Of a DNA stretch of 64,000 nt, positions 2,744-36,913 are shown piece after piece; position 1 is the first letter of the stretch; each line of letters starts with the position of its first letter. Both the position numbers and the translations under genes were made by a program. Source of the DNA: Pseudomonadota bacterium (GTDB taxonomy: Bacteria; Pseudomonadota; Gammaproteobacteria; Burkholderiales; Thiobacillaceae). The notes below the pieces were generated by a model. That model was not told where the DNA came from. It saw only the letters and a program-made list of their open reading frames with translations, and did not search any database. The DNA lies in the NCBI GenBank assembly GCA_021826065.1, contig JAKADY010000006.1, forward strand, positions 1 through 64,000, written 5' to 3'.

Positions 2744-2769
2744 AGAGAAGCAGGATAAGGAGAGCAACG

Positions 2770-5700
2770 ATGGCCAAAACCACCACCAAGCCCTGGCACC
2801 AGGTCGTGCAGCTGCGCGACGACATCACTAATCAGGAACTGTCGCAGAAGCAGTTTGCGGCGGACTTGTACGACGTGGTGATGGGGCGCAACCCGGGCGT
2901 CTACCACGATGCGAAGGAGTTCTTCGCGCTCACGTACCCCACGGTCAAGCTGCGAGATCTTGCGCGTGACGTCACCCACCGCCTGGCGGGCAAGTCCGAG
3001 AAGGCCGTGCGCCAGTTGCACATGACCTTCGGCGGCGGCAAGACCCACTCCTTGATCACGCTGGTGCACTTGGTGCGCGATCCTGCGAGCCTGCCTGACA
3101 TTCCAGCGGTGCAGCAATTCAAGGCGCACTGCGCACTCGAAGGCGGACTGCCAAAGGCGCGCGTGGCGTCGGTGGTGTTCGACCGCCTGGACGCCGAAAA
3201 AGGCGTGGAAGTCGTTGCGCCCGACGGAAGCCTGGCAACGGTCAAGATGCCATGGAGTGCGATCGCCTGGCAGCTGGCGGGTAGCGAAGGCATGAAGCTC
3301 TTGAAAGACGACGGCACGGAACGCACGACGCCTCCGGCCACAGGCGTCATGGAAGATCTGCTCAAGCTCGCCCGCAAGGACGGCGATGGCGTGCTGATCC
3401 TGTTTGACGAGGTGCTGTGGTTCGTGCGCGTGATGGCCGATACCGATCCGAAATGGATCGGCCGTATGCGCGAGTTCATGCACAGCCTGACCCAGGCGGT
3501 TGCCAAGGTGCCGCAGTGCTGCCTGGTGGCCTCGTTGCTGGCATCAGACCCCGGCAAGATGGACGAGCTCGGCAAACAGATCAGCAAGGAACTCTACGAC
3601 GAGTTCAAGCGCGTGGCCGATGAAGGCATCCAACCGGTCGAAAGCCAGGACGTGCCGGAGATTCTGCGGCGCCGGCTCTTGAAGCTCGAAAGCTACACCG
3701 ATCGTTCTCTGTGGGGCGCGCAGGTGGTCGCGGCGCTGAACGGCATTCAGGCCATCGATGATTACACGGCCAAGAACCGCGCCGCGGAGGAAAAGCGCTA
3801 CCTGGAGGCCTACCCCTTTCACCCCGACTTGATCGATGTCCTCTACAAGAAGTGGACGATGCTTGAGGGCTTTCAACAAACGCGGGGGATTCTCAAAACG
3901 CTCGCTTCAGCCCTGCGCGACGCGGTGAAGTGGGACCAGCAAGCACTGATTGGGGCCCAGGTGTTCCTGGGGCACCCGGATGCGGATGGGCTTAGCGTAG
4001 CCGCGGCACAGCTTGCCAATGATGCTCAGCTCGAACAGTACGAGGGTCGCCGGCAGAACTGGACGGCCATCCTGCAGGCAGAGCTCGCCCATGCGCGCAA
4101 GGCGCAGGATGGTCTGCTGGGTGTCCAGCACCGTGAGATCGAGCAAGCGGTGATGGCAACGTTCCTCCACTCGCAGCCCATTGGTCAGCGCGCGACCACG
4201 CGCGAACTGAAGGTCCTGATTGGCGTGGGATCGCCGGACCGCATCGTGCTGGACAAGGGGCTCGCGCGTTGGTCGGACGCCTCTTGGTATCTCGATGACA
4301 CGTTCACCGGAGACCGTGAAGGCGGGTTGCCCAAGGTATGGCGCCTGGGCTCCAAGCCCAATCTGAAGCAGATGCATTTTGATGCGCGCCAGAACGTGAG
4401 CTCGACGGCCGTGGAAGAAGTGCTGGAGGCCGAAATCGCCAAGGCCAAACAGCTCACCGAAGGCGCTCGCACGCTGGGTGCCAAAGTCCACGTGCTGCCG
4501 GCGCGTCCTGCCGACATCGAGGACGACGAGGACTTCCACTACGCCGTGCTCGGCCCCAAGGCGGCGTGCAATGGCAAGCCGAGCGCCGAGGCCAGGCGCT
4601 TCATTGACGAGACGGCGGGGCCGGACAAGCCGCGTGCGCGCAACCGCAACGCCGTCGTGTTGGCGGTGCCGTCCAAAGATGGCATCGAGGTGGCCCGTGA
4701 AAAGGTGCGTGACCTGCTGGGCTGGGAGAAGGTACGCGAGATGCTCAAGGAGCGCAACGACATCGACACCGCAGCCACAGCGCGCCTAGAAAGCAATCTT
4801 CGCGCGGCCCGTGGGGAGATGGGGTCGCAGATCGTCATGGCCTACTGCATCGCCGTCACGGTCAACGACGGTAACGAAGTGGCTGCCTACCGCATCAATG
4901 TCGATAACGAGCCCTTGTTCCCCAAGATGGTGGCGGACAAGCGGCTGCGCATCGAGAGCACGGCAGTCAATTCCGAGGCGCTGCTGCCTGGCGGACCGTT
5001 CGATTTGTGGGCGGATGGTGACAAGGCGCGCTTCGTGAAGGATCTGGTCGGCGCTTTTGCGGCTACGGCCAAGTTGCCCAAGATGCTGAACCGCCGCGCC
5101 ATCCTGGAAACCCTCCTGGCGGGCTGCGAGGCGGGAGAGTTCGTATTGCGGGTGACGCGCGCCGACAAATCGACGCGCACTTTCTGGATGTCCCGCCCGG
5201 ACGAGAACGCCGTCAACGACTCCAGCCTTGAGGTGGTGCTGTCAGATGCGGCCGTACTGTCCGAGCTGGATCCGCAGCTGCTGGCCCCTGGGCGGCTGCC
5301 GGGCCTTTGGAACAGGGAGCCTCTCACCCTGGCGGATCTTACGGCCTACTTCTCCGGTAAGCACTTCGTCGAGGTCGACAAGGGCGGTTACACCGAAAAC
5401 CTGCTGATCCCCGAGGCGACTCAGCAGGCCATCCTTGACGCCGTCACCGGGGCGGTCAAGAGCGGCCGGATCTGGTTGCTGAACGGGACGGTCAGCGTGC
5501 TGGGTGAAGACGTTCCTGCAGGGTTCATCAATGAGGCGGCCCAGCTGTTCTCGCCGCCACCGCCGCTTTCGGCCGTTGATGTGCTGCCTGCGCACCTGCC
5601 CACGGCGTGGCAAGGCGATGCGACTAACGCGCATCTCATTCATGCGGCGCTCTCGTCGAAGGGGGGCAAGGTGCTGCCATGGACGCGCGTCGCTGCGGCA

Positions 5701-16386: not shown

Positions 16387-17379
16387 TCAGGGGATGAGTC
16401 TCACGGCATAGCCGTGCAGGCCGCTCTTGCCGTTCTTGGAGTGGGCCGGAAAGGCCATCCACTGCTCGGCGCCCAACGCGAAGGCCTCCGCCGGCGCGTA
16501 GTGGGTGATGTTGAGATAGCGCAGGTGAGCGGTGTGGCCGAAGGGCGAGAAGAAGCCGGACGGCCGCGCCACGAACAGGTAGAACGGCAGCATCGGCGTC
16601 ACGCCGTTCAAGGTGTTGGGCACGTGCCCCCACCAGTAGCGCGCCAGACTGTCGCGCGGCGTGCCCGTGCCCCGTTCCCACAGCGCCTTGGCGCGCTTGC
16701 CGGTGAGCGCCCAGTCCTTGCAGACCGAGTGCCAGTCGGTGGCGCCGTCCACCTCGGCGAGAACGAAGTTCGCGCCGCCGTAGTACTTGTAATCGTTGAA
16801 CGGCAGGCCGAAGTGCCGGTCGTGGTCGTAGCCGAAGACATAGTCGTTGAAGCCGCTGTACGTATAGGTGTAGGCGTCCGGGCCGAACGCGCCCGACACG
16901 AACGCCCCGCCGCCGTAGCTGCCGAACTTCGTGAGATCCCCGAAGGCGAGATGGTGATAGACGCCGGGCGAGACCTCGGCGACGAGCATGATCAGTTCGG
17001 GCGTGGCGGCCGAGAGTAGGTGGTAGGTGTTGGCGGTGCCCACCTCGAACAGGCCGCAGGCTTCGGCGCGGTAGCTCGTGGTGTTGCTCACGTAGCTGGC
17101 GTTGACGATCGATTCGGGTTGATCCCACCAGGGCTTGCCGGCATCGAATCCCGTCGAGCCGATCAGCCAGATGCCGGTGATGGTGTTGTAGCGTGTGGAG
17201 AGGCGCTCATTCACCGCGGAGCGCAGATGGACGTAGAGCCCGCCCTTGGCGAGCGACAGGGTCTGCCCGGTGCCGTCTGGGGCCCAGCGTAGCTGGGTCC
17301 AGCCGTTGGCCACCGCGAACACGCGCAGGGCGTCGAGCAGCTGATCGGGGTTGGCGGAGGTACCAGTCTGGTAGGCCAT
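16387..17379 (-). CDS. phage tail structural protein, paralogue 1
   Basis: 330 residues. It opens with MAYQTGTSANPDQLLDALRV and shares the opening layout (MA-x-x-x-GTA/S, LLD, FxxxNGW-like text) with the next gene upstream. Tyr/Phe/Gly-rich middle parts (GVYHHLAFGDLTKFG; FNDYVFGYDHD) look like beta-structured distal-tail or baseplate proteins. No enzyme motif was seen. Confidence 0.6.
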   Translation of the reverse strand: MAYQTGTSANPDQLLDALRVFAVANGWTQLRWAPDGTGQTLSLAKGGLYVHLRSAVNERLSTRYNTITGIWLIGSTGFDAGKPWWDQPESIVNASYVSNTTSYRAEACGLFEVGTANTYHLLSAATPELIMLVAEVSPGVYHHLAFGDLTKFGSYGGGAFVSGAFGPDAYTYTYSGFNDYVFGYDHDRHFGLPFNDYKYYGGANFVLAEVDGATDWHSVCKDWALTGKRAKALWERGTGTPRDSLARYWWGHVPNTLNGVTPMLPFYLFVARPSGFFSPFGHTAHLRYLNITHYAPAEAFALGAEQWMAFPAHSKNGKSGLHGYAVRLIP

Positions 17380-17385
17380 GGTCGG

Positions 17386-18318
17386 TCACGAAAGGCGCAG
17401 CGCCCAGTAGTCGCGCACGCTGGTGCGATACACGTTCTGCACCACGAGGTGGTCCACGCCGCCCACCGTGATCAGGTTCTCGGCGGCGTTGTTGAACCCG
17501 GAGACGTGATAGATGCCTTCCAGCTCGCCGAAGAGGTCGTGATCGGTGCCGGAGTTGTTCTGCGTGAGCACCACGGGCGAGAGCACGTAGGTGCCGTCCG
17601 GCGCCTCGCGCAGGTTGTCGAGGTAGGTGTAGTTCGTCGGCCAGACCGGGCGCGGCCCGTCGTAGCGATACTCGGACGACGAGTAGGCGAGGTTCTGGAA
17701 CGGCAGCCAGGCGCCCGAGGGGCCGCGCAGCATGCAGGCGGTGTTGGCGTTGTTCTGTCCATCCTCGCCCGGGTCGACGAAATGGCGGTGGTTGGGCGAG
17801 GTCACGCTGTAGTTGCGGCCCCGCTGGCCGGTCATCGAGCCGCCGACGAGCAGCGGGTACGGGTACTGACCCGGCGTCGCGTAGGGCAGGACGAAGCCCA
17901 GGTGCGCCGCCTGGTAGACGGTCGAGATCTTCGCCACCACCACGGCACGTCGGCCGTTGGCCACGAACCAGTACGGGATCGCCGTGTTCCAGAGCGACAT
18001 CATCGGCAGCCAGCCGCTGATTGCGCCCGGTTGCGCATAGAAGTCGTTGGCCGGATTGAAGCCGATGAAGCCGTTCAGGTCCCACATGTAGTAGCCGGCC
18101 GTGGCGTTCTCGTAGGCCCGGATGCCGCAGTAGATCTCCTCGGCACCGGCCAGGCCGGGCGCTTTGAGGATGAGCTCTTTCGTGGCGGCGTCCGTCGTCC
18201 AGTGCAGCGCCTGCCACTGCTGGCCCGCGGCGACCAGATTCGGGTGAGTGGTGAGGAAGGCATGGAAGCGGTCCAGCAGATCGCGGTAATCGCTGGCCGT
18301 GCCGATTTCGAACGCCAT
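17386..18318 (-). CDS. phage tail structural protein, paralogue 2
   Basis: 310 residues beginning MAFEIGTASDYRDLLDRF. It resembles the adjacent 330-residue protein in length, N-terminal pattern and composition, suggesting tandem duplication. It directly follows the tape-measure gene (1-bp junction), the usual place of the distal-tail protein. It contains no catalytic signature. Confidence 0.6.
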   Translation of the reverse strand: MAFEIGTASDYRDLLDRFHAFLTTHPNLVAAGQQWQALHWTTDAATKELILKAPGLAGAEEIYCGIRAYENATAGYYMWDLNGFIGFNPANDFYAQPGAISGWLPMMSLWNTAIPYWFVANGRRAVVVAKISTVYQAAHLGFVLPYATPGQYPYPLLVGGSMTGQRGRNYSVTSPNHRHFVDPGEDGQNNANTACMLRGPSGAWLPFQNLAYSSSEYRYDGPRPVWPTNYTYLDNLREAPDGTYVLSPVVLTQNNSGTDHDLFGELEGIYHVSGFNNAAENLITVGGVDHLVVQNVYRTSVRDYWALRLS

Positions 18319-21300
18319 TTACGCAAGCACCTGTCTGACGGCTCCCGCATTGCGTTGCAGGATGTTGAGGATGGTCTTCTCGCCCGCGGACGAGTTGAGG
18401 TAGTCGGCGGCCATCGCCGGGTCGATCACGTTGACGATGCGCACCGCCTGGCCCTGCGGTTGCGGTGGCGGCGCCTCGGGCACCAGCCCGCCGGCGGCGA
18501 AGGCGAGCCGGGGCCCCTGGATGCGCGGTCCGCCTTCGATGCCGTTGATCGCCTCCAGGAATGCCACGCCCACGCGCTTCACGGCGGCGGCATTGACTAC
18601 GTACTCGCCGGCGGAGAGTCGTGCCGGGATCGAGTCGCTGGTGGAGGTGCCCGGGCCGGTGACGTAGCCGCCGCCGGCGAAGCCCTGAAACAACGACGAG
18701 ACCAGCGATCCCAGGCTGAACCCGCCCGCGCCGCCGCCCCCGAACAGGCTGCCGAACAGCGCCTCGGCGAGCTTCTGCGAGGCGATGCGGTTGATGGCGG
18801 CGAGTACCGAGCGGGCGAAGTCGGCGAAGGCGTCCTTGGCCGATTTGGCGCCGCTGCCGATGGCCTCGAACATCTGCGCGAAGCCGTCCTGCACCGCCCC
18901 GTCGATGGCGACCGCCACGTCGTCCACCACGAGCTTCACCTGCGCGATCTCGTTCTTCCAGGCCTGCACGCGCGCCGCCGCCTCGGGGCCGATGGCCGCG
19001 GCGGCGGCCTCCAGTTGTGGCAACAGTCCTTCCAGCGCCGCCCCGGTCTCCCGGTGCAGCGCGAGGATCTGCTGGCGGGCCTGGGATTCCGTGAGCAGCC
19101 CCGACTGGCGCTGCAGGTTGATCGACTCCTCGGATGCACGCATCCGGGCGAGCGCGTCGTTGAACTGGCGCTCGTAGTCGGCGAGATCGGCGGCCGCCGA
19201 CTTGACGTCGATGAGGCGCCCGACCGTGGCCACGCCTTCGGTGTCGCCCTCGGCACGCAGCCGCTCGATCAGCGTCTGGTACTGCCGCTCGATCGCCGCG
19301 CGTCGATCCTGGCTGGTCGCCGCCCCGGTGAGGTCGAGCAGTTCGTCGCGCACCTTGGCAAGCTCCTCGCGCAGCTCGCGCTCGTCCTGGGCGGCCTTGC
19401 GGGCATTGGCGACCTCGACGTCCGCGCGCTTGTTGTTGAGGACGGTGAGCTCCGCTTCGAGCTTGGCGACCTCGGCTTTCGCCTTGAGGCGTGCCGGTTC
19501 GTCCTTGCCGGTCTCTTGCAGGCGCTGCTGCTCCGCGAGCGAGACCTGCACGCGCCGGATCTCCGCATCGATCTCCTGCTGCTCGATCCGGGTCTTGGCG
19601 GCGTAGTAGTCCTTGAGCGAGATCAGCCGGTCTTCGAGGGAGGCATCCAATGCCCGCGCCTGACGGTCCAACGCGTCCTTGAGGAGCTTGAATTCGGTCT
19701 CGGCCTGGGCCTGCACGAGGGCGAGCTTCGCTGCTTCGCCTCCCTTGTCGGGGGCGGACAAGGCCTGCGGCTGCGGACGGCCGAAGACGCCCGGCTGGGT
19801 TGGCTCGGGGCGGATGCGCCGGGCGATGGCTTGCGCGGCCTCCCCGACGTAGTCGCGGGTGACGGCGTCGCGCACGGCTCCAGCCAACTCCTTCCCGAAA
19901 TCCCGCACCTCGCCGAGCTGGCGGCCGAGTGCTGCGCGCAGCGCCTGCATCGAAAAGTCGCCGCTGAAGGCCGCTGCCACGTCCTGGCCCAAGGCCTTCG
20001 CCAGCTCTCCGATGTCGGAAAAGGCGCTACGAAAGCGCTCGACCAGGAAGGCGGCCGTGATGCCGACGACGCTGCCGATGGCGTTGAACGCGCCGATGAC
20101 GACATTGACCATCGCGCGGACCGCCGTGCCGATGGCGTTCAGCGCGGCGACCATCGCCGCGCGCACGCGGGCCCAGGAGAGATCGTTGGTGCCGACCAGC
20201 CTTCCTAAGGCGCTGACGACTTCCCCGACCTTCTCGACGACCAGGTTCCAGGCGGCGGCGACGATCTGCTTGATCGAGGCGGTCCTGCCGCCGAACTCGA
20301 CCACGGCGTCGCGCGCCGAATAGAGTGCGCCCGCGAGCAGCCCCGCGGCGGTCACGATGACGCCGATGGGCCCGCCCAGGAGCGCGAGCACCCCGCGCAA
20401 CAGACCCGCGGCGCGACCGAGCAGGGACGTGGACGCTACTGCCTGAGCCACGGCACCGGAAGCAGCGGTGGCTTGCAGCCGGGCCTTGGCCGCATCCGCG
20501 ACCAGCGCGCCGGTGGCAAGCCCTTGCGCACGTGCCTGAGCCAGGGCGGCATCGGCGAGCCGCACCCGGGCGAGCGCCTCGGCTTCCAGCGTGCGCAGGT
20601 TGGCCAGGCGCGCGGCCGCTTCCGCCCGGGCGGCGGCAACACTGGTCGCGAAGGCGCCTGCCATCCGCCCGAAGGCGGCGACCAGCACGACACCGGCCAG
20701 GTCGATCAGCAGCTCGAGATGCCGGGCGACGAACTGGATCGCCTGCGCCAGTCCCGCCGTCAGACCCGAGCTCGCGTCGCGTTCGCCAAAGGCCCGCTGG
20801 AAGGCGTTCTTCAGGCGGGTGAGCGCACCCGACACCGTATCGGGGAGGCTCGCGTACTCCTCGGCGAGGCGCGTCCGCTCCTTGAGCAAGGCGTCGAGCA
20901 CGGCCTTCGAGGTGATCTTGCCTTCCTGGGCCAGGGCTCGCAGTGAGCCGAGCGGCACGCCCATGCCGTCGGCGATGGCCTGCGCCAGGCGCGGCGTCTG
21001 CTCGATGACGGAATTGAACTCCTCACCGCGCAGCTGGCCCGAGGCGAAGGCCTGCCCCAGCTGCAGCAGGGCACCGGCCGCCGCGTCGCTGGATGCGCCG
21101 GAGAGCGACACGGCCTGCCCGATGGCGTCGGTAGCCGCCAGCACGTCCGCCTGCGAACGCCCCAACGCCTGCACCGAGGGTGCGAGCCGCGCATAGAGGG
21201 TGATGGTCTCTGCCAGGGGCGCGCGGTTTTTCTGGGCGATCTCGAAGAGGGCCGCGTCGGCGCGGTTGAACTCCTCTTGCGAGGTGACCGCGAGCTTGAG

Positions 21301-21516
21301 GCGCGCCTGCAGGTTCTTGTACTGGTCGGCGACCTCGACCAGTTCGCGCACCCCCAGCCCAAGGCCGATCGCGCCGCCGATGCGTGAGAGTACCTGGCCG
21401 ACCTGGGCGGCTTCGCCGCGCAGGCGGGCGAGATTTCCCTGTACGGACTGGAAGGCCCGTCGCGTCTCATCGACGGCGGTGATGAGGATCTGGGCACGGT
21501 TACCGGCCACGTTCAA
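18319..21516 (-). CDS. phage tail tape-measure protein
   Basis: 1065 residues, the largest phage protein here. It contains long alanine-rich helices, a 'tape measure' N-terminal domain (SLSGASSDAAAGALLQLGQAFASGQLRGEEFNSV is split text from about residues 105-140), a hydrophobic central region (about 355-400 and 460-495) and a C-terminal end with FAGGGYVTGPGTSTSDSIPA, the GG-rich motif common at tape-measure C-termini. It sets tail length and is ejected during DNA injection. It overlaps the DUF6441 gene by 4 bp. Confidence 0.93.
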   Translation of the reverse strand: MNVAGNRAQILITAVDETRRAFQSVQGNLARLRGEAAQVGQVLSRIGGAIGLGLGVRELVEVADQYKNLQARLKLAVTSQEEFNRADAALFEIAQKNRAPLAETITLYARLAPSVQALGRSQADVLAATDAIGQAVSLSGASSDAAAGALLQLGQAFASGQLRGEEFNSVIEQTPRLAQAIADGMGVPLGSLRALAQEGKITSKAVLDALLKERTRLAEEYASLPDTVSGALTRLKNAFQRAFGERDASSGLTAGLAQAIQFVARHLELLIDLAGVVLVAAFGRMAGAFATSVAAARAEAAARLANLRTLEAEALARVRLADAALAQARAQGLATGALVADAAKARLQATAASGAVAQAVASTSLLGRAAGLLRGVLALLGGPIGVIVTAAGLLAGALYSARDAVVEFGGRTASIKQIVAAAWNLVVEKVGEVVSALGRLVGTNDLSWARVRAAMVAALNAIGTAVRAMVNVVIGAFNAIGSVVGITAAFLVERFRSAFSDIGELAKALGQDVAAAFSGDFSMQALRAALGRQLGEVRDFGKELAGAVRDAVTRDYVGEAAQAIARRIRPEPTQPGVFGRPQPQALSAPDKGGEAAKLALVQAQAETEFKLLKDALDRQARALDASLEDRLISLKDYYAAKTRIEQQEIDAEIRRVQVSLAEQQRLQETGKDEPARLKAKAEVAKLEAELTVLNNKRADVEVANARKAAQDERELREELAKVRDELLDLTGAATSQDRRAAIERQYQTLIERLRAEGDTEGVATVGRLIDVKSAAADLADYERQFNDALARMRASEESINLQRQSGLLTESQARQQILALHRETGAALEGLLPQLEAAAAAIGPEAAARVQAWKNEIAQVKLVVDDVAVAIDGAVQDGFAQMFEAIGSGAKSAKDAFADFARSVLAAINRIASQKLAEALFGSLFGGGGAGGFSLGSLVSSLFQGFAGGGYVTGPGTSTSDSIPARLSAGEYVVNAAAVKRVGVAFLEAINGIEGGPRIQGPRLAFAAGGLVPEAPPPQPQGQAVRIVNVIDPAMAADYLNSSAGEKTILNILQRNAGAVRQVLA

Positions 21517-22160
21517 ACCTTCGACATTGCTTTACGGATGGCCGCCGTCAGGCGGGGAAGATCGCCTCGCACCGAGCGGGCGAGGTCGAACCGTTTTCTC
21601 AAGCTCACGCGTCGCACGAGCACGGCGATGGGAATCTCCTGGCCGCGCCGCACGCGCCTGGCGCCGGTGCGCTCCCGCTCGGCACGACGAAAGCGCGCGA
21701 GCGGCCGGGCGTTCTCGGCGATGTTCTCGGCCATCAGGATCTGCCGGCCGTTCTTCTCGATGAAGAAGGCATTGCCGGAGCGCATCAGGGCATCGATCAC
21801 CCGAGCGAACGCCTTGCGCCCGATGCGCCGGTGCTGCGGCAGCAGCGGGACGAGCATCCGCCCCCGGATCGTTCCGCCCTGTTCGTGGATACCCAGCCAG
21901 GGCACTTTCGAGCCGATGTAGAGGGCCGGGAATTCCTTGGCCTTGCGGTCGAACACCTTGGCGTGCATCGAGCGGAGGAACTTCGGCTTCACGACCTTGA
22001 AACCGGCGCGCATTTCGCCCCGCGCCCGCTCGGCCATCACCTTGCCGGTGTCGCGCATCGCGCGGGCCACGGCGGTGTGGATCGCCTTGCGGGTGTCGCC
22101 CTGCCAGGCGCTGAAGCGCCGCCGATCCAGCAAGCCCTCAGCGACCAGATCGATCTTCAT
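21513..22160 (-). CDS. DUF6441-like phage minor tail protein
   Basis: 215 residues using ATG 22160 (MKIDLVAEGLLD); a further in-frame ATG upstream at 22196 adds 12 poor-looking residues and overlaps the chaperone extension more deeply. The protein is very basic. KAIHTAVARAMRDTGKVMAE and WLGIHEQGGTIRGRMLVPL resemble minor tail/completion proteins (the IHEQGG motif). Its position between tail chaperone and tape measure is unusual, because the chaperone normally abuts the tape measure. Confidence 0.6.
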   Translation of the reverse strand: MKIDLVAEGLLDRRRFSAWQGDTRKAIHTAVARAMRDTGKVMAERARGEMRAGFKVVKPKFLRSMHAKVFDRKAKEFPALYIGSKVPWLGIHEQGGTIRGRMLVPLLPQHRRIGRKAFARVIDALMRSGNAFFIEKNGRQILMAENIAENARPLARFRRAERERTGARRVRRGQEIPIAVLVRRVSLRKRFDLARSVRGDLPRLTAAIRKAMSKV

Positions 22161-22745
22161 CACGCATGCCCCGATGGAGTTCGGTCTGGAGTTCACGGAT
22201 GCCGTCGCGACTGCCCTGGGCGGCAGCGGTCATGACGGCAAGCCGGGTGGCGAGCCGTTCGTGTTCGAGGCGGCGATCGGCGGCGAGGAAGGCGTTCAGC
22301 TGGCCCAACGTGTAGCCGAGGATGTCCGGGTAGCGGTGACCGCCCCGTATCAGGCGGGCGATGGCGTCAGCCCAGCCAGACGGCCGTTCAGACGCTGCGC
22401 CAGATCGCCGACTTTCGGCGCGATCCGGCGCACGAAAAAATCCGCGTTCACCTCGAACACGGTCGCCGCCAGGGTGATGGCATCGTCGAGAGCCAGCGCG
22501 TCCACCCACTCGCGCGGTTGGCGGCTGGCGATCGCCAACCCGGTGAGCAAGGCATCGCCGTGGTCCGAGAGCAAGGCGAGCCAGTCCGGCTCGCCCGCCA
22601 GTCGTTGCGCGAAGGGCTGCACGGCCTTGAGCATCGCCGGCAGCTCGCCGAGCACCAGCGGGCTGATCGCGAGGCGTTGGCCGGCCAGATCCACAACTTG
22701 AGGCTGCGGCACGAGAACATCCAGATCGGAAGCACTCATCGTCAT
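22138..22745 (-). CDS. tail assembly chaperone -1 frameshift product (gpGT-like)
   Basis: The open frame 22509-22138 has no credible start codon, continues past the gpG stop and lies in the -1 frame relative to gpG. Shifting at 22440-22434 joins 104 zero-frame residues to 98 residues read from 22434 (first codon CGT), giving about 202 residues. The T-domain text includes IARLIRGGHRYPDILGYTLG. This matches the conserved gpG/gpGT strategy of lambda-like tails. The extension ends 22 bases inside the DUF6441 gene. If expressed, the short and long forms would be made in a fixed ratio. Confidence 0.7.
22350..22745 (-). CDS. phage tail assembly chaperone (gpG-like), zero-frame product
   Basis: 131 residues starting at 22745. 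VLVPQPQVVDLAGQRLAISP and LGELPAMLKAVQPFAQRL are typical of short tail chaperones following the tail-tube gene. About 80 bases before its stop it contains the heptamer T TTT TTC in the zero frame, followed by a strong hairpin. A fraction of ribosomes should therefore shift into the -1 frame and make the longer form listed next. It acts transiently on the tape-measure protein during tail assembly. Confidence 0.75.
   Translation of the reverse strand: MTMSASDLDVLVPQPQVVDLAGQRLAISPLVLGELPAMLKAVQPFAQRLAGEPDWLALLSDHGDALLTGLAIASRQPREWVDALALDDAITLAATVFEVNADFFVRRIAPKVGDLAQRLNGRLAGLTPSPA
22393..22440 (-). promoter_or_regulatory. programmed -1 frameshift signal: slippery TTTTTTC plus hairpin
   Basis: The heptamer TTTTTTC (22440-22434) is phased T TTT TTC in the gpG frame. 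Two bases later GCGCCGGATCG pairs with CGATCTGGCGC (11 bp including one G-T), a 2-nt bulge follows, and CCGA pairs with TCGG around an AAG loop. The basal pairs lie closer to the heptamer than the usual 5-9 nt, so they may be melted when the ribosome pauses. Confidence 0.72.
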
Positions 22746-22749
22746 CCCC

Positions 22750-23502
22750 TCACAGCAGCACGACGCGGCCGAACTGGCCGAGGTCGCCGGCGGCGGGCTT
22801 GAGCGTGTCGGCCAGCACCTGGCCCGAAAGCTCGAACTTCAGCAGCTCGTCGGTGATGACCGAGAGCTCCTTGGCCGGATTGATGGCCACGCGGTAGAGA
22901 TCGATCACCACCTCGCGGTTGCCGTCGGCGGTATTGAGTCCCTCGAAGCGCACCCAGCGCTCGGGCAGCGGCTGGGTGAACATCGCGGTGACCGAGGCCG
23001 TGCCGTAGGCGTAGTCGACCTTGAAGGGCTCGACGTAGGGTCCGCCGGTGGTGGCGTCGAGGATCACCAGCGAGCCGTGCTTGGCGTTCACCGAGTACTG
23101 CGCGGCCGGCAGAATCTTGGGGGTGGCGCTGGAGTCCTTTACCACCACCGACGAGACGTCCTGCTTGGCGAGCAGGTAGAGGCTGCCGGGAGTGACCGGG
23201 TTCGGCAGCGCCTCGGCGGTGACCGTGCCCGGGGTCTGGGCGGTGGTGGCGCCGTAGAGGGCGAGCGCCAGGTTGGTCGCGATGAGCTCCTCCAGCGTGC
23301 AGGCGAACTCGCCCTTCTTGGTCTTGATGAGCTGCAGGTCGGTGAGGCGCTGGCCGCTCACCGACTCCTGGTGCTCCAGGGTCTCCACCGAGAGGGAGAC
23401 CTTGAGTTCGGGCACGTTGCCCACGTAGGCCAACCCCTGCGGGTTGCCGAGTGCGTCGCGGGCGCCGATGTAGACGCGCCCCTGTCCGGAAAAGTAAGGC
23501 AT
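22750..23502 (-). CDS. phage major tail tube protein
   Basis: 250 residues. GQGRVYIGARDALGNPQGLA and PELKVSLSVETLEHQESVSG followed by a KTKKGEF segment match tail-tube proteins of lambda-like phages. LALALYG and the C-terminal FELSGQVLAD region are also typical. It lies between the tail-terminator-type genes and the chaperone, the canonical position. It polymerises into the tube around the tape measure. Confidence 0.82.
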   Translation of the reverse strand: MPYFSGQGRVYIGARDALGNPQGLAYVGNVPELKVSLSVETLEHQESVSGQRLTDLQLIKTKKGEFACTLEELIATNLALALYGATTAQTPGTVTAEALPNPVTPGSLYLLAKQDVSSVVVKDSSATPKILPAAQYSVNAKHGSLVILDATTGGPYVEPFKVDYAYGTASVTAMFTQPLPERWVRFEGLNTADGNREVVIDLYRVAINPAKELSVITDELLKFELSGQVLADTLKPAAGDLGQFGRVVLL

Positions 23503-23504
23503 GG

Positions 23505-23699
23505 TCAGTCTCCTTTACGGGTCTTGATCGGGGTCTGGGGTTGGGGGTCGGCCGGCCGCGCGGCTCCGCGCTCGATCAGCCCCCGCGCGGTCCCGCGCTC
23601 GATCAACCATTCCGCCGCTGCCTCGTCGAGATCGAGGATCTCGCCGGGGGCGTGGAGTCGGCCGGCGTGGGTGTGTGGTTCGATGAGTTCGATGTGCAT
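23505..23699 (-). CDS. small phage protein (DUF7210-like)
   Basis: 64 residues from ATG 23699. HAGRLHAPGEILDLDEAAAE and two near-identical tandem copies of L/GLIERGTAR-type text (IERGTARGLIERGAARP) are visible; the DNA carries the matching short direct repeat at 23570-23605. Similar 'pH-sensor-like' short proteins with WLIERGAA endings occur between head-tail joining and tail-tube genes in many siphophages. Function unknown. Confidence 0.6.
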   Translation of the reverse strand: MHIELIEPHTHAGRLHAPGEILDLDEAAAEWLIERGTARGLIERGAARPADPQPQTPIKTRKGD

Positions 23700-23704
23700 G
23701 GTGA

Positions 23705-24133
23705 CTATCCTTTTTGGGTGAGGTCGGAGGCCAGGGTGCGGTAGCGGATCTCGTAGCGCGCGGGCACGGCCAGGGCTTGGCTGTCTGCGTCCTCCGCGTC
23801 CCACTCGCAGTCGATCTCGCGCACGCCCAGGGCCAGCCCGCCGAGGCTCGGCTCGGCCATGAGCGCGCCGTGCGCCGCGACGATGAGCGCGTCGGCCACG
23901 TCGAAGGCGTCGCCTTCGCGCGCGAGCGCGACCAGCCTCAGCGTCAGGGCACGCTCACACCGGTCGTTCGCTTGCGCGAGGACTTGATCGCCTTCGATGA
24001 ACAGGAGGATCGCGGGGCTCGCCTCGCGCGGGAGCGGCACGGTGGGCTGGCGATGCAGCGGCGTCGGTGCGATCGCGGGACCGATACGCGCCACGACCGC
24101 CCGGACCAGGCGCTCGCGGACGGAGGACGTCAT
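23705..24133 (-). CDS. phage tail terminator / minor tail protein
   Basis: 142 residues from ATG 24133, overlapping the upstream joining gene by ATGA. ERLVRAVVARIGPAIA at the N-terminus, LFIEGDQVLAQ and LRLVALAREGD followed by DVADALIVAAH fit tail-terminator (gpU-like) proteins. It sits just before the tail-tube block, consistent with completing the tail end that meets the head. Confidence 0.6.
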   Translation of the reverse strand: MTSSVRERLVRAVVARIGPAIAPTPLHRQPTVPLPREASPAILLFIEGDQVLAQANDRCERALTLRLVALAREGDAFDVADALIVAAHGALMAEPSLGGLALGVREIDCEWDAEDADSQALAVPARYEIRYRTLASDLTQKG

Positions 24134-24411
24134 AGCCGGGTCAGCTTGGCCTGCATCTCGGAGCCGTCGCGCAGCTGGCGGACCTCGCGCACCCGATACG
24201 GGCTTCCTGCGATCTCCACCGTGTCGCCGGCGGCGAGGGTGAGCCAGGCGCTCGGGTACTCGAGGTGGTAGTCGCGGTTCAGTGCGAGCCCGTCGAGCGC
24301 CAGCTCGTCCGGGGCGCTGAAGACGCACTGCACCGTGAGCGAACCCACCATGACGTCGGTGAGCAGCCCGGCGCGGCCGGCGGCCTCGTAGAGATCCGTC
24401 ACCTGCGCCAT
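24130..24411 (-). CDS. phage head-tail joining protein
   Basis: 93 residues. Start ATG at 24411 shares a base with the capsid gene stop (TGATG). The text LEYPSAWLTLAAGDTVEIAG and YRVREVRQLRDGSEMQAKL is typical of the small gpFII-like joining proteins that close the connector. The position between capsid and tail-terminator genes supports this. Confidence 0.7.
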   Translation of the reverse strand: MAQVTDLYEAAGRAGLLTDVMVGSLTVQCVFSAPDELALDGLALNRDYHLEYPSAWLTLAAGDTVEIAGSPYRVREVRQLRDGSEMQAKLTRL

Positions 24412-25415
24412 CACGCTGCCGTCAGCTTCACCAGCACGCCGGGCCGGTGGCACATGGGCAGCGGGTTGCTCTGGGTGTGCAGGTCGGTGCCGCGGTCGAA
24501 CTTGCGCGGCTCCTGCTTGGCGTAGAGCGGCAGGCCCAGGGTGTTGACCGTCTCGTTGAAGTCGGCGGGCGCGACGTAGGTGGCGAAGGTGTCGACGGTG
24601 CCGAGCGGGAAGCAGTGGGCCTCGCCCGCGGCGATGAAGCGGCGCGCGTTGCCGTTGGCGTCGGTGGCCTGGCCCCGGTACTCCTCGAAGGTGATGCCGG
24701 CGAAGACGAAGCCCGCGCGCACGTCGTTGATCAGGATCGCGCCCTGTTGCCACTGCGCGTAGGCCTCCTTGACCGACTTGTGGCCGGTGAGCGCTCGGAA
24801 GAACTCGGGCGAACAGAGGACGTGCACGCCGGTCATGAACTCGCCCTTCAGGTTCTCCTCGATGTGGGCCAGCACCTCGTAGCAGTGGCCCTTGACGTCG
24901 CTCGCGGCATTGGCCAGATCGAAGGCGATGGTGGTGGGCCTGAGATCGAACTCGTCGAACAGGTCGTAGATCGTGCTGCCGTCGGCGTCCAGGATCTGGC
25001 CCTTGAGTGCGCCCATACGCAGGTGTTCGAGGGTGATCGCGTGCTTGTTGCGCATGGTCTCCAGATGCCGTGCCAGCACGCCCGCGACGGCCTCCATCTC
25101 CGTCTCCGAGCCGAAGGCCCGGATGCCCTGGACCTCCTCGGGCAGCACCACGTCGTCGTGCGGGATGTGCGGGACGACGAAGGAACGCAAGGAGCGCTGG
25201 CCGCGTTCGCCCACCGTGCCCGGCGAGCCGGGCGGCCGGGTGGGCAGCAGGTTCAGGCGCCCGGCGTACTCCTCGATGACGACCTGGCGCGTGCGCACGG
25301 GCTTGGCCGGAAACAGGTTCAAGGCTTCCAGCCGCCCGTAGCGGTTGGGGATCAGGTTGATGGCGGCGGTCAGGCTCGCCATCGAGAAGCCGGGGGAGTC
25401 GAAGGGGTTGAGCAT
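24411..25415 (-). CDS. phage major capsid protein, gpE type
   Basis: 334 residues from ATG 25415, preceded by GGAGACC; a TTG four codons upstream is less likely. RTRQVVIEEYAGRLNLLPT, RSFVVPHIPHDDVVLPEEVQ and GVHVLCSPEFFRAL are hallmarks of the lambda gpE capsid family (HK97 fold). It follows the decoration protein gene and a hairpin that could attenuate or process the transcript to raise capsid expression. Confidence 0.93.
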   Translation of the reverse strand: MLNPFDSPGFSMASLTAAINLIPNRYGRLEALNLFPAKPVRTRQVVIEEYAGRLNLLPTRPPGSPGTVGERGQRSLRSFVVPHIPHDDVVLPEEVQGIRAFGSETEMEAVAGVLARHLETMRNKHAITLEHLRMGALKGQILDADGSTIYDLFDEFDLRPTTIAFDLANAASDVKGHCYEVLAHIEENLKGEFMTGVHVLCSPEFFRALTGHKSVKEAYAQWQQGAILINDVRAGFVFAGITFEEYRGQATDANGNARRFIAAGEAHCFPLGTVDTFATYVAPADFNETVNTLGLPLYAKQEPRKFDRGTDLHTQSNPLPMCHRPGVLVKLTAA

Positions 25416-25431
25416 GGGGGTCTCCAAACGA

Positions 25432-25456
25432 CAGAACCCGCCAGCGGCGGGTTCTG
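25432..25456 (-). terminator. hairpin between decoration and capsid genes
   Basis: CAGAACCCGCC pairs perfectly with GGCGGGTTCTG (11 bp) around a 3-nt loop. On the minus strand it is followed by TCGTTTGGAGACC and the capsid start codon. There is no uninterrupted U-tract, so it may stabilise or process mRNA rather than stop transcription. It belongs to the same module as 10768-10789. Confidence 0.5.
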
Positions 25457-25481
25457 AACAGGGGGCTCGATGAGTACTCGA

Positions 25482-25859
25482 TCAGGCGCTGTCGCGCACC
25501 ACGATGCCGCGCGCTTCGAGCTGGGCGATCGCAGCGAGCTGCTGCGCGGTGGTGATCCCCGCGGGCCAGACCAGTGCGTTTCGCGCGACGATGGCGTGGC
25601 GGGCGATCAGGATCGCGTCCTCCCGGTCGATCAGCGTCGCATCCACGGCCAGCGCGAGCACGCCCACGGCGACATCGCTGCCGTCGCCGGCGGCGGGGTC
25701 GAGGGCCTTGAGCTTGGCCGTGGCCGTCTCGCGGCCGACCACGGCGCCGAGCGGCAGGTTCTGCCCGGCGGCCACGGTCGCCTGCTCGCGCGAATACAGG
25801 TTCGGCGCCTCGTACTTCAGCAGGTCGCCGAGGGTGGGGGCTTGGGTGAGCGTGGGCAT
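25482..25859 (-). CDS. phage head decoration protein (gpD-like)
   Basis: 125 residues. LKYEAPNLYSREQATVAAGQ and LPLGAVVGRETATAKLKAL are typical of the gpD/HDPD family that forms trimeric spikes on lambda-like heads. DREDAILIARHAIVARNALV and LEARGIVVR complete the conserved C-terminal half. It lies between the protease/scaffold gene and the capsid gene, as in lambda. Confidence 0.88.
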   Translation of the reverse strand: MPTLTQAPTLGDLLKYEAPNLYSREQATVAAGQNLPLGAVVGRETATAKLKALDPAAGDGSDVAVGVLALAVDATLIDREDAILIARHAIVARNALVWPAGITTAQQLAAIAQLEARGIVVRDSA

Positions 25860-25862
25860 GGT

Positions 25863-26186
25863 TCACTCCCGGGTCACGAGTTTCTTCACGGCGGCGACCA
25901 CGGGCGAGGCGGCCGGATCGGCGCCGGGGGCGGCCCAATCGTTGGGCGCGTGGGTCGAGCGCACGGCCGACTCCATGCTGTGGGCGGCGCGCGCCTCGAT
26001 CAGGGCGCGGCGCACCTCGGCTTCGGTGCGGCCGGCGGCGATGAACTCGGCGGCACGCTCGGGGCAGCCGGCGAGCAGACACAGTTCCGCGATCGCTTGC
26101 GCGGACTGCGCCACTTCGCGGCGGGCCTCGGCCACCAGGGCGGCGGCTTCATCCACGCCGAGCGTCTCGGACGGGGTGTCGGTCAT
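25863..26186 (-). CDS. nested in-frame scaffold protein (Nu3-like)
   Basis: Within the protease gene an in-frame ATG at 26186 (MTDTPSETLGVDEAAAL) is preceded by GAGGAACCCCCACC, a good ribosome-binding site. Initiation there gives 107 residues, mainly acidic and helical, resembling lambda Nu3, which is also made from the 3' end of the protease gene. I infer expression from this analogy; there is no direct proof. Confidence 0.5.
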   Translation of the reverse strand: MTDTPSETLGVDEAAALVAEARREVAQSAQAIAELCLLAGCPERAAEFIAAGRTEAEVRRALIEARAAHSMESAVRSTHAPNDWAAPGADPAASPVVAAVKKLVTRE

Positions 26187-27086
26187 GGTGGGGGTTCCTC
26201 GGAGAACGGTCGCCTTCCCGGTCGGGGCTTGGCGCGGCGGGGAAGACGGACGCCGCGTGGCAGAAAGATGTCGGTCGAACTCGGCGAGCACCGCGGGGAG
26301 CGTGGCCACCCTGTCGGCCAGCCCCGTCTCGACGGCCTGCGGGCCGAAGAAGAGCGCGGCCTCGGTCGCGCGCACCGCGTCCTCGGGCAGGCCGCGCATC
26401 GCCGCCACGTGCGCGACGAAGAGCGCGTGGAGCCGGTCCACCTCGGCCTGCAGCGCCGCGCGGGCGGCATCGTGTAGCGGCTCGTGCGGCGAGTAGTCGT
26501 TCTTGCGCTCGCCCGCGGTGATCGCGGTGTAGCGGTAGCCGTCTTGGGCGTCCTTGACCGACTGGTCGACGTGCAGCGCGATCACGCCGATCGAGCCCAC
26601 GCCGCCGGTCTCGGTGACGAAGAGCCGCTCGGCGGCGCAACCGATGGCGTAAGCCGCGGAGAAGGCGGCGTCGTTGGCCACCGCCCAGACCGGCTTGAGG
26701 CCGGCCGCCTCGCGCACGCGGCGTGCGAGCTCGAAGCACCCGCCGGTCTCGCCGCCGGGTGAGTCGATGTCGAGCACGATGCCGGCAACCAGAGGGTCGC
26801 CAAGGGCTGCCTCCAGCCGCGCGCCGATCTCGGCGTAGCTCGTCAGCCCCGAGGCCGCCTCCAGCCCCAGCGTGCGCTTGACCAGGGTGCCGTGGATCGG
26901 CAGGACCGCGATCGAGCTTGACGCAGACGCCGCAGGGTTCGGGGCCCTCGGCAGCGGCGGCGCGAGTGCGACGTCCGGCGCGGTGAGATGGAGGCGCTCG
27001 GAGAGCACCGCGAGGATCACGTCGAGCTTGGCGCGCTGGACGAGCAAGGGCGTGCCAAAGAGCCGGGAGGCGAGATGGGGCAGCAT
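25863..27086 (-). CDS. S49-family phage head maturation protease with C-terminal scaffold
   Basis: 407 residues. The N-terminal two thirds form a SppA-like serine protease: IVLDIDSPGGETGG, the nucleophile Ser in AFSAAYAIG and a Lys in TAGERKNDYSP match the Ser-Lys dyad of S49 peptidases such as lambda gpC. The C-terminal about 107 residues are helical, Ala/Glu-rich and begin at an internal ATG with its own Shine-Dalgarno sequence. Placement between portal and decoration protein is as in lambda. Confidence 0.9.
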   Translation of the reverse strand: MLPHLASRLFGTPLLVQRAKLDVILAVLSERLHLTAPDVALAPPLPRAPNPAASASSSIAVLPIHGTLVKRTLGLEAASGLTSYAEIGARLEAALGDPLVAGIVLDIDSPGGETGGCFELARRVREAAGLKPVWAVANDAAFSAAYAIGCAAERLFVTETGGVGSIGVIALHVDQSVKDAQDGYRYTAITAGERKNDYSPHEPLHDAARAALQAEVDRLHALFVAHVAAMRGLPEDAVRATEAALFFGPQAVETGLADRVATLPAVLAEFDRHLSATRRPSSPPRQAPTGKATVLRGTPTMTDTPSETLGVDEAAALVAEARREVAQSAQAIAELCLLAGCPERAAEFIAAGRTEAEVRRALIEARAAHSMESAVRSTHAPNDWAAPGADPAASPVVAAVKKLVTRE

Positions 27087-33520: not shown

Positions 33521-33889
33521 ATGACCACAGCCAAAACGATCCCCGCCACCCGCAACGAAGCCTGGGGCTTCTGGGGCACGATGGACGCGCACGCGCAATC
33601 CGCCTGGCCCATCGCGATGAACGCCATCTCCGACGCCACGGGACAGCCCTTCGAAGCGGTGCGGGCCTTCCTCGACAGCCGCCACGGACGCCACTTCGCG
33701 GACGAAGTCCTCAACCGCAAGCATGCGGGCCATGCCCTCCACGACGCGATCCGCGCCGCCACCCGGCAGTGGATGGAATGGACCATCGGCCGCCAGACCA
33801 GCAAGGACTACGGTATCCCGCGCGGGCTTCCTTATCTGACCGGGTTCGTGATTCACTGCGCGATCGCCGACGAGTCGCTCGCCGCCTGA
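33521..33889 (+). CDS. phage/plasmid early protein of unknown function
   Basis: 122 residues from ATG 33521 with GAAGGAG ribosome-binding site. NEAWGFWGTMDAHAQSAWPI and ALHDAIRAATRQWMEWTIGR are conserved-looking helical segments found in hypothetical proteins of conjugative elements. Its 3' end overlaps the convergent methylase gene by 37 bp, so antisense interference is possible. Confidence 0.65.
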   Translation: MTTAKTIPATRNEAWGFWGTMDAHAQSAWPIAMNAISDATGQPFEAVRAFLDSRHGRHFADEVLNRKHAGHALHDAIRAATRQWMEWTIGRQTSKDYGIPRGLPYLTGFVIHCAIADESLAA

Positions 33890-35118
33890 TCGAAGGCCAG
33901 GCCATCCGCCTCGCGGGTGGCTTGCTGGCCCGTCCAGTCCTGCCAGCGCCGCACGATCACGTCCGCATACTTCGGGTCGAGTTCGATCAGGCGCGCCACG
34001 CGCCCGGCCTTCTCGGCGGCGATCAAGGTCGTGCCCGAGCCGCCGAAGGGGTCGAGCACCACGTCGCCGGGGCGGCTGGAGTTGCGGATGGCCCGCTCGA
34101 CCAGATCCACCGGCTTCATGGTCGGGTGCAGGTCGTTCTTCTGCGGCTTCTTGATCTGCCAGACGTCGCCCTGGTCGCGGTCGCCGCACCAGTGGCGCGT
34201 CGCGCCTTCGGGCCAGCCGTAGAGGATCGGCTCGTACTGGCGCTGGTAGTCCGAGCGGCCCAGCGTGAAGGTGTTCTTGGCCCAGATGATGAAGGTCGAC
34301 CAGTGCCCGCCGGCGGCGCGGAAGGCCGCTTGCAGCGTGTCCAGTTCGCTGGAGGACATGGCGACGTAGATCGCGCCTCGGGTGTGCGCCATGATCAGCG
34401 CCAGCGCATCAAAGAGGAAATCGTAGAAGCCTTCGCCCAGCGCATCGTTGAGGATGGGGCGGTGTTTGCCGCGCAGCTTGTCCTTCGCGCTGTTGGCGTA
34501 GTTCACGTTGTAGGGCGGATCGGTGAAGACCATGTCCGCCCGCTCGCCGTCCGGAAACAGGCGCGCGTAGGCCTCGGCGGTGGTCGCGTCGCCGCAGACC
34601 AGGCGGTGCGGCCCGAGCCGCCAGACGTCGCCCGGCTTGGACACCGACTCTTCCGGCATCTCCGGGACGGCGTCGTCCGCGGTCTGGCCCTCGTGCTCCG
34701 GTTCCTCACCAGCGAGCAGTTCGGCCAAGGCATCGGCATCGAAACCGGTCAGGTCGAGATCGAAGCCATCGTCCTGCAGCGCCTCCAGTTCGATGCGCAG
34801 CAGGGCATCGTCCCAGGTCGCGAGTTCCGCGAGCCGGTTGTCCGCGAGCACCAGGGCGCGGCGCTGGGTCGGCGTCAGGTGATCGAGCACCACCACCGGC
34901 ACGGTGGCCAGACCCAGCTTACGCGCCGCGGCAAGCCGCCCATGGCCCGCGACCAGCACACCGTCGGCGCCGGTGAGAATGGGATTGACGAAGCCGAACT
35001 CCGCGATGGAGGCCGCGATCTGGGCGATCTGCTCGTCCGAGTGCTGGCGGGCGTTGCGCACGTAGGGCAGCAGCTTGTCGATCGGCCAGTGCTCGATGCG
35101 ATCGGCCAGCCAGCTCAT
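33853..35118 (-). CDS. ParB-domain DNA adenine-type methyltransferase
   Basis: 421 residues. The N-terminal about 110 residues are a ParB/Srx-like nuclease-fold domain (SDEQIAQIAASIAEFGFVNP; GHGRLAAARKLGL). The methylase part carries DPPYNVNYANS (motif IV) near residue 200 and DPFGGSGTTLIAAEKAGR (SAM binding) near 375, the order of a beta-class enzyme. TRD lies between (WGDRDQGDVWQ-like text). It probably protects phage DNA from host restriction. It overlaps the next methylase by 4 bp, so the two form an operon. Confidence 0.92.
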   Translation of the reverse strand: MSWLADRIEHWPIDKLLPYVRNARQHSDEQIAQIAASIAEFGFVNPILTGADGVLVAGHGRLAAARKLGLATVPVVVLDHLTPTQRRALVLADNRLAELATWDDALLRIELEALQDDGFDLDLTGFDADALAELLAGEEPEHEGQTADDAVPEMPEESVSKPGDVWRLGPHRLVCGDATTAEAYARLFPDGERADMVFTDPPYNVNYANSAKDKLRGKHRPILNDALGEGFYDFLFDALALIMAHTRGAIYVAMSSSELDTLQAAFRAAGGHWSTFIIWAKNTFTLGRSDYQRQYEPILYGWPEGATRHWCGDRDQGDVWQIKKPQKNDLHPTMKPVDLVERAIRNSSRPGDVVLDPFGGSGTTLIAAEKAGRVARLIELDPKYADVIVRRWQDWTGQQATREADGLAFDQAASDSSAIAQ

Positions 35119-36539
35119 GCAGTGACCTCCGCCGTCTCGCCCAGCCGCTCGGCGGCGACTTCGGCGAAGGTCCGGCCGCTGCCCTCCAACACCGGCACCG
35201 TGCCCGGGTGGTGCTGCAGCCAGCGGCGCAGCGCGACGTCCACGTACTCGGGCGCGAGTTCGATGGCGCGTACCGGGCGGCCGGTGAGTTGGCCGGCCAG
35301 CAGCGTGGTGCCCGAGCCCGCGAACGGCTCGAAGACGATCTCGCCCGCGTCGGTGTAGGCCTCGATGAAGAACTTCGGCAGGCCCAGCGGGAACACCGCC
35401 GGATGATCGATGCCTTCACCGATGCGGCCGCGCTGGCGCGTCACCTCGACGACCGAGTCTGGGATGCGGAACTCCTGCGTGGGCTGTCCGGCATGGTTCC
35501 AGGCGCCGACCTTGCCGTCCTTGCCGCGCATCGCGGTGGACGATCCGTCGGCGCGCAGGTGCGTCTCGTGCCCGGCCCACTTGCAGGGCACGATCTTGTT
35601 CGGCTTGCGCGAGCGTCGGTTGAAGTGGAAGACGAACTCGTGCCGGGGCGCCAGCCGCCCGGCCCAGTCGCCGGGCACGGTCACCGACTGGTCCCACACG
35701 TACCAGCCAAAGCGCCGCCAGCCTTGAGTGCGCATCCATGCGATCCAGCCGTCCCAGTACGGCTGCCACTCGTTGTCGCGATGCACGAGCCCGAGGTTGA
35801 CCAGGAGTTGCGCGTCCTCGCGCAGCGCCGCGCCAGCAGCGCCGAACACACCTTGCATCAGCGCGTCCCAGTCCGCGATGCCGCCGGTGGTGTACTCGCG
35901 CTGGTTGGCATACGGTGGGCTGGTGAAGAGCAGATGCGCCCGCTCGCCCTCGAGGAGGCGCGCGACGGCGGCCGCGTCGCGGCTGTCGGCGCACAGCAGC
36001 CGGTGTTCACCGAGCAGCCACAGATCGCCGGGGCGCGTGACCGCCACCGTGGGCGGTGTGACGTCGTCCTCGTCCGGGTCGCGGACCAAAGCACTCGTGT
36101 CCTCTTCGGCAGACGGTTCCGTCTTCTCGATGGCGTCGAGCAGGCCTTCGATCTCGGAGGCAGAGAAGCCGGTCAGATCCAGGTCGTAGCCCGCGTCGGC
36201 CAGTTCGGCGAACTCCAGCGCGAGCATCGCCTCGTCCCAGCCGGCATCGAGTGCGAGCCGGTTGTCGGCGATCACGTAGGCGCGCTTCTGCGCGGGCGTC
36301 AGGTGCGCGAGCTCGATCACCGGCACTTCGGTGAGCCCCAGCTTGCGTGCGGCCAGCAGCCGGCCGTGACCGGCGATCACACCGTGCTCGCCATCGACCA
36401 GGATCGGGTTGGTCCAGCCGAACTCGGCGATGCTGGCGGCGATGCGCGCGATCTGCTCGTCGCTGTGCGTGCGCGGATTGCGGGCGTAGGGGATCAGCGT
36501 CTCGACCTTGCGGTACGTGACGGCGAGCGTGTCCAGAAT
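35115..36539 (-). CDS. ParB-domain DNA methyltransferase with TSPPY motif (probable N4-cytosine type)
   Basis: About 474 residues. The N-terminal ParB-like domain (SDEQIARIAASIAEFGWTNP) is paralogous to that of the downstream methylase. TSPPYANQREY near residue 235 suggests cytosine-N4 specificity, and EPFAGSGTTLLAGQL is the SAM loop. No ATG, GTG or TTG follows the hairpin at 36560-36589; the best initiation is ATT 36539 or CTG 36536 after GAGGCACC. An ATG at 36698 would force the operator and hairpin to be coding, which I consider unlikely. Confidence 0.8.
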   Translation of the reverse strand: MLDTLAVTYRKVETLIPYARNPRTHSDEQIARIAASIAEFGWTNPILVDGEHGVIAGHGRLLAARKLGLTEVPVIELAHLTPAQKRAYVIADNRLALDAGWDEAMLALEFAELADAGYDLDLTGFSASEIEGLLDAIEKTEPSAEEDTSALVRDPDEDDVTPPTVAVTRPGDLWLLGEHRLLCADSRDAAAVARLLEGERAHLLFTSPPYANQREYTTGGIADWDALMQGVFGAAGAALREDAQLLVNLGLVHRDNEWQPYWDGWIAWMRTQGWRRFGWYVWDQSVTVPGDWAGRLAPRHEFVFHFNRRSRKPNKIVPCKWAGHETHLRADGSSTAMRGKDGKVGAWNHAGQPTQEFRIPDSVVEVTRQRGRIGEGIDHPAVFPLGLPKFFIEAYTDAGEIVFEPFAGSGTTLLAGQLTGRPVRAIELAPEYVDVALRRWLQHHPGTVPVLEGSGRTFAEVAAERLGETAEVTA

Positions 36540-36559
36540 CGGTGCCTCGGAAACGAAGA

Positions 36560-36589
36560 AGCCCGCCGACGGCGGACCGTGGGCGGGCT
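36560..36589 (-). terminator. hairpin in methylase leader
   Basis: AGCCCGCC pairs with GGCGGGCT (8 bp) around a 14-nt loop that can itself fold. On the minus strand it is followed by TCTTCGTTTC and then GAGG of the methylase ribosome-binding site. It is the third copy of the module at 10768 and 25432. Confidence 0.5.
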
Positions 36590-36624
36590 GGGGGTGTCGG
36601 GGAGAAGGTCTCGGGCTGGAGGGC

Positions 36625-36658
36625 TGCAAACCGCAAACCCTGCAAACCTCGGTTTGCA
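36625..36658. repeat. TGCAAACC repeat cluster, candidate operator or iteron
   Basis: TGCAAACC at 36625-36632, GCAAACC at 36633-36639 and TGCAAACC at 36641-36648 in direct orientation, then GGTTTGCA at 36651-36658. The last two form a perfect 8-bp inverted repeat with a 2-bp centre. Periodicity is about 8 bp. Placed upstream of the methylase start. Confidence 0.6.
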
Positions 36659-36913
36659 CCCTGACGCTATCGAAGCGCCGCGCTCGCGCCCCCCGCATGG
36701 CTCGGTGCCCAGGAAGGACCCGTGGATGGCTGGGCGGCTTCCTCGACCGTCACCGCTGTCCAGACCTTAGCCGAAATGCTACCCCCAAACGGGCGGATCT
36801 GTTGCAGTGGCGAAAGCCGCATTTCGCCGCCGATGCGCGCGGATGCGCGACCGCACCCGCCAAATCACGCCAAAACACGCAGGCGTGGTGGCATGCGCTC
36901 GTGCCCCGCGACT

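Follow-up and report, generated by a model that had tools for sequence, protein, structure and literature searches.

A prophage tail operon in the 64,000-nucleotide stretch of DNA analysed here (the window) contains a reading frame, T, that overlaps the end of a putative tail assembly chaperone gene, G, in the −1 frame and lacks a start codon of its own. How is T translated? Comparing the site with its counterparts in related prophages and phages, we arrive at an answer that we hold with great confidence, namely a programmed −1 ribosomal frameshift in the tail operon yielding a predicted chaperone-T fusion.

The tail operon and its slippery heptamer

The tail operon runs in the order terminator, DUF7210, major tail protein, G/T, DUF6441 and tape measure (Table 1). 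An NCBIfam search left G, T and DUF6441 all without a match. The predicted fold of G (pLDDT 81) found its best BFVD matches among the chaperones of Stenotrophomonas phage DLP_5, Xylella phage Sano and others, with a probability of 1.00 for the 'Pre-tape measure frameshift protein G' of Sano; no PDB match was obtained for G by sequence or by fold. The initial annotation had recognized the gpG/gpGT layout of lambda-like tails, an assignment supported by the PHROG 1442 match, the predicted fold, the operon order and the conservation of T described below. Adjacent tail-region genes at 16387–18318 (−), encoding 330 and 310 aa, have similar beginnings and by eye look like paralogues. Two neighbouring genes at 33853–36698 (−) each code for a fusion of a ParB-like domain and a DNA methyltransferase (PHROG 498).

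Table 1 Features of the prophage tail region in the window.
Feature	Position	Strand	Description
Prophage structural genes		−	terminase, portal, head protease, major head protein, tail terminator, DUF7210, major tail protein, chaperone, DUF6441, tape measure, distal tail genes
Tail terminator	23705..24139	−	PHROG 4204, E 1.1e-41
Major tail protein	22750..23502	−	with Ig-like domain; PHROG 807, E 1.1e-84
G-like tail assembly chaperone, zero frame	22350..22745	−	131 aa; PHROG 1442, E 3.9e-35; Pfam DUF6631, E 5.1e-9
Shine-Dalgarno-like GAGGTG	22449..22454	−	positions −14 to −9 from the heptamer, GAGG ending 10 nt before it; likely 5' stimulator
Slippery heptamer T TTT TTC	22434..22440	−	codons GAT TTT TTC, X XXY YYZ phase
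T-like extension, −1 frame	22138..22434	−	98 aa plus stop; PHROG 13355, E 1.2e-16; also PHROG 14432
Downstream stem-loop	22396..22432	−	11 bp (one G-U) plus inner 5 bp; spacer 1–2 nt; possible lineage-specific 3' stimulator
DUF6441 gene, separating chaperone from tape measure	21513..22160	−	Pfam PF20039, E 2.5e-97
Tape measure protein	18319..21516	−	1065 aa; PF20155 TMP_3, E 4.3e-64; PHROG 2335, E 5.4e-199

The presence of T TTT TTC in the zero frame of G, as noted initially, as well as its coordinates and the junction peptide ADFF-RAPDR, were confirmed from the sequence. The zero frame around the heptamer reads GCG GAT TTT TTC GTG CGC (ADFFVR), and a −1 slip at T TTT TTC would join 104 residues of G to the 98 of T, giving a product of 202 aa that ends with the stop at 22138. 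The heptamer is the sole TTTTTTC on the two strands of the 64-kb window, and one of just two X XXY YYZ sites with A or T as Y that lie in frame in the 17 phage genes (7922 codons). The codons used at the site are minority choices in this phage, where TTT accounts for 12% of the Phe codons (21/178, against 157 TTC) and GAT for 22% of the Asp codons.

Both G and T are present in 176 loci, comprising the relatives and the window's own locus, and in 175 of these T occupies the −1 frame. All 139 non-redundant loci carry the heptamer T TTT TTY (T TTT TTC in 107, T TTT TTT in 32), in each case preceded by GA, with the codons GAT and TTT kept at the site and with a fusion frame free of stops. Clustered at 75%, the set comprises 28 representative lineages, every one retaining GATTTT; from their own codon usage, and assuming independence, about 10^-23 would be expected by chance. 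Most relatives were found via G-protein motifs including FEVNADFF, so that ascertainment accounts for part of the amino-acid conservation at the site, though not for its codon choice. The heptamer test was repeated on 40 non-redundant loci identified, or examined, solely by way of the T domain, a set partly overlapping the 139; single T queries were used for this, the T-domain alignment being too diverse for a pattern search. The phased heptamer was present in 40/40 of these loci, as TTTTTTC in 29, TTTTTTT in 10 and AAAAAAG in one, the distant Vibrio phage V-YDF132. That one slippery heptamer has replaced another without any change of position or frame argues strongly for ribosomal slippage. 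A tblastn search of cultured phages with G and with DUF6441 returned no match.

Several records deserve mention in their own right. For the phages PotUPM1 (L178, TTTTTTC), SM1 (L180, TTTTTTT), vB_PstS-pAN (L181, TTTTTTC) and V-YDF132 (L182, AAAAAAG), the T domain and the phased heptamer are present and the frameshift product is missing from the annotated features. Tail-gene DNA 94–99.98% identical to window positions 18353–26745 (L002, L082–L089) occurs across proteobacterial genera that differ by record name (Luteimonas, Silanimonas, Dyella, an Azoarcus MAG, a Thiobacillus MAG, Methylococcus and Methylocaldum), which suggests recent exchange of the tail module among proteobacteria. In one of these records, L086 (Thiobacillus sp. 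65-1059), about 3.4 kb of additional sequence (about 525–3982), perhaps a mobile element, is situated where the major tail protein gene ends, immediately upstream of G. In L004, G is 90% identical to that of the window, T and DUF6441 only 56–58%; the G/T overlap of this locus thus looks like a recombination boundary at which the heptamer was retained.

Elements flanking the heptamer

Upstream of the heptamer lies an SD-like GAGG that the initial annotation had not noticed. We scored SD-like motifs as GAGG, GGAG, AGGA, GGNGG or AGGKG located 6–17 nt upstream (PMC4066793) and found one in 130/139 loci, compared with 16% of positions elsewhere in G, so that a putative 5' stimulator of the type known from dnaX and IS elements is a feature of the family. 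Elements at such a distance stimulate frameshifting experimentally, and even without stimulators U_UU.U_UU.C and U_UU.U_UU.U give >0.10% frameshifting in E. coli (PMC4066793).

Downstream, the strong hairpin reported initially was recovered with an energy of −27.1 kcal/mol in 40 nt (RNAfold). Only 0.3% of the 40-nt windows in phage genes and 0.65% of synonymous recodings (p 0.0065) are as stable, and the structure is kept in close relatives, 13 close sequences having 82.7% of cells paired. These values would fit a hairpin that acts as the essential stimulator, a proposal concerning the stimulator and not the frameshift itself. We consider it unlikely: covariation in the same 13 sequences does not exceed that of shuffles, several relatives with the heptamer in place (e.g. 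L004, L005, L009 and L096) have a disrupted stem, and the mean stability z over the relatives, −0.38, is like that of control windows. On these three grounds the hairpin was rejected as a family-wide conserved element, and what stands of the initial proposal is an unusually stable structure in the window and its close relatives. The spacer had also been described as shorter than usual, in agreement with the 1–2 nt found here and the usual 5–8 nt (PMC4066793). With this spacer, and with a structure that is not conserved family-wide, the locus differs from sites with a conserved stem-loop 4–10 nt from the heptamer. We conclude that the conserved signal consists of the heptamer and the SD-like element, the hairpin being at most a lineage-specific booster. 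The case advises caution in calling hairpins from a single sequence in G+C-rich genomes.

Selection on T and alternative routes to its expression

For 20 close relatives whose T is equally long, we obtained dN/dS values of 0.14 for the G-only part and 0.15 for the T-only part in the −1 frame; read in the wrong frame, the T-only part of the same relatives gave 1.6. By this measure, purifying selection acts on the −1 reading of the T-only stretch. Within the 27-codon overlap of G and T, the zero frame is the better conserved of the two. Eleven diverse T domains share invariant residues, among them W21, G32, H33, Y41, T42 and Q45. Conservation of the heptamer and of both frames in relatives, the check named in the initial annotation, was thereby borne out.

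The fusion could also arise by transcriptional slippage, where RNA polymerase stuttering on T6 would add or drop bases and so produce mRNAs that join the two frames. The site is homopolymeric, the run is extended to T7 in 32/139 loci, and at L144:4305 (Thermomonas sp. S9) a T7C fuses G and T in one genomic frame; this T7C may be a homopolymer error, the contig name suggesting a long-read canu assembly, or a true constitutive fusion. Bacterial cases of transcriptional slippage, however, are described for tracts of about nine A or T (PMC5009743), and here six are followed by C. The exact X XXY YYZ phase everywhere, A AAA AAG in the Vibrio phage and the conserved SD-like element all fit ribosomal slippage instead, and we regard a transcriptional origin as very improbable.

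Slightly less credible still is a separate T protein initiated internally in the −1 frame, with no fusion formed. The −1 frame is open upstream and contains a GTG at 22509, and the T frame is entered as a protein of its own in some database records. Yet this GTG sits within the conserved coding region of G, and between heptamer and T domain there is no ATG, GTG or TTG in 136/139 loci, window included. An internal start would further leave the perfect conservation of the heptamer and the codon bias at the site unexplained. The initial annotation had relied on a −1 frame open for 98 codons without a start; both observations hold, but openness by itself is no evidence, because 98 codons is the median length of open −1 runs in the G+C-rich phage genes here. 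Although this median would suit a chance open frame beside a fortuitous T6C, such a coincidence is refuted by diverged relatives in which heptamer, frame and T protein sequence are all conserved, and its probability is negligible.

A model for the proposed frameshift and its relation to known systems

In the programmed ribosomal frameshift that we favour, most ribosomes would complete the 131-aa chaperone. A minority would pause as the 16S rRNA anti-SD pairs with the GAGG 10 nt upstream, and here perhaps because of the hairpin too, whereupon both tRNAs would slip from U UUU UUC into the −1 frame to give the chaperone-T fusion of 202 aa. If the two products act as lambda gpG and gpGT do, the short form would coat the tape measure protein and the long form would recruit the major tail protein.

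The gene following T may be touched by the same event. DUF6441 between chaperone and tape measure had initially been taken as unusual; it is in fact standard for this chaperone family, accompanying the module in 137/139 relatives and, where measurable, starting at the end of T. Its start overlaps the T stop by 4 nt in 41 loci, by 11 nt in 30 and by 23 nt in 24 including the window, and lies a few bases past the T stop in others. Zero-frame ribosomes terminate about 190 nt upstream of this region. Since nearly all relatives have DUF6441 starting across or right beside the T stop and the zero-frame stop comes earlier, translation of DUF6441 could be coupled to the frameshifted minority of ribosomes, a speculative idea drawn from the gene overlap to which we assign a low probability. 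If true, the slip would set the dose of a third protein of the tail operon besides the chaperone ratio. DUF6441 has no solved relative by sequence, and its predicted model (pLDDT 65.7) was too poor for meaningful fold matches. Among the papers searched, none names DUF6441, or TTTTTTC in a phage tail frameshift.

Among known frameshift signals, that of E. coli dnaX likewise combines an upstream SD-like stimulator, a homopolymeric heptamer and a 3' stem-loop. It differs in its heptamer (A AAA AAG), in belonging to an unrelated gene, in its efficiency of about 50% and in leading to an early stop, not an extension (PMC5009743). Closer counterparts are the Stenotrophomonas phages Summit and DLP_5 (Delepquintavirus), which have a homologous T domain (50% over 38 aa) and T TTT TTT at the site; a chaperone frameshift product is annotated in Summit, and DLP_5 provides the best fold match of G. 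In both phages, by contrast, the tape measure follows T directly and G is only about 25% identical, and Summit has no GAGG upstream of the heptamer. The PHROG database keeps the zero and −1 frames as separate families, and for annotators the practical consequence is to join PHROG 1442 (G) with PHROG 13355 (T).

The likeness to lambda G/GT extends from the operon order, with the chaperone gene placed after that of the major tail protein and before that of the tape measure, to the −1 slip near the 3' end of that gene and the T extension lacking its own start. As in lambda-type systems, the heptamer is an in-frame X XXY YYZ, the −1 reading frame is conserved as protein, and G resembles known tail assembly chaperones. 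The lambda heptamer is GGGAAAG; here, T TTT TTY is found together with a conserved upstream SD-like element, and DUF6441 separates T from a tape measure gene that usually follows directly, an adjacency we did not treat as defining. Chaperone and tape measure thus need not adjoin. The lambda G/GT −1 frameshift has widespread counterparts (Levin 1993; Xu, Hendrix and Duda 2004, reviewed in PMC5009743). The signal described here is of this well-known kind, a further case of the lambda G/GT class, and offers a clean, family-wide example of a tail-chaperone frameshift in proteobacterial prophages.
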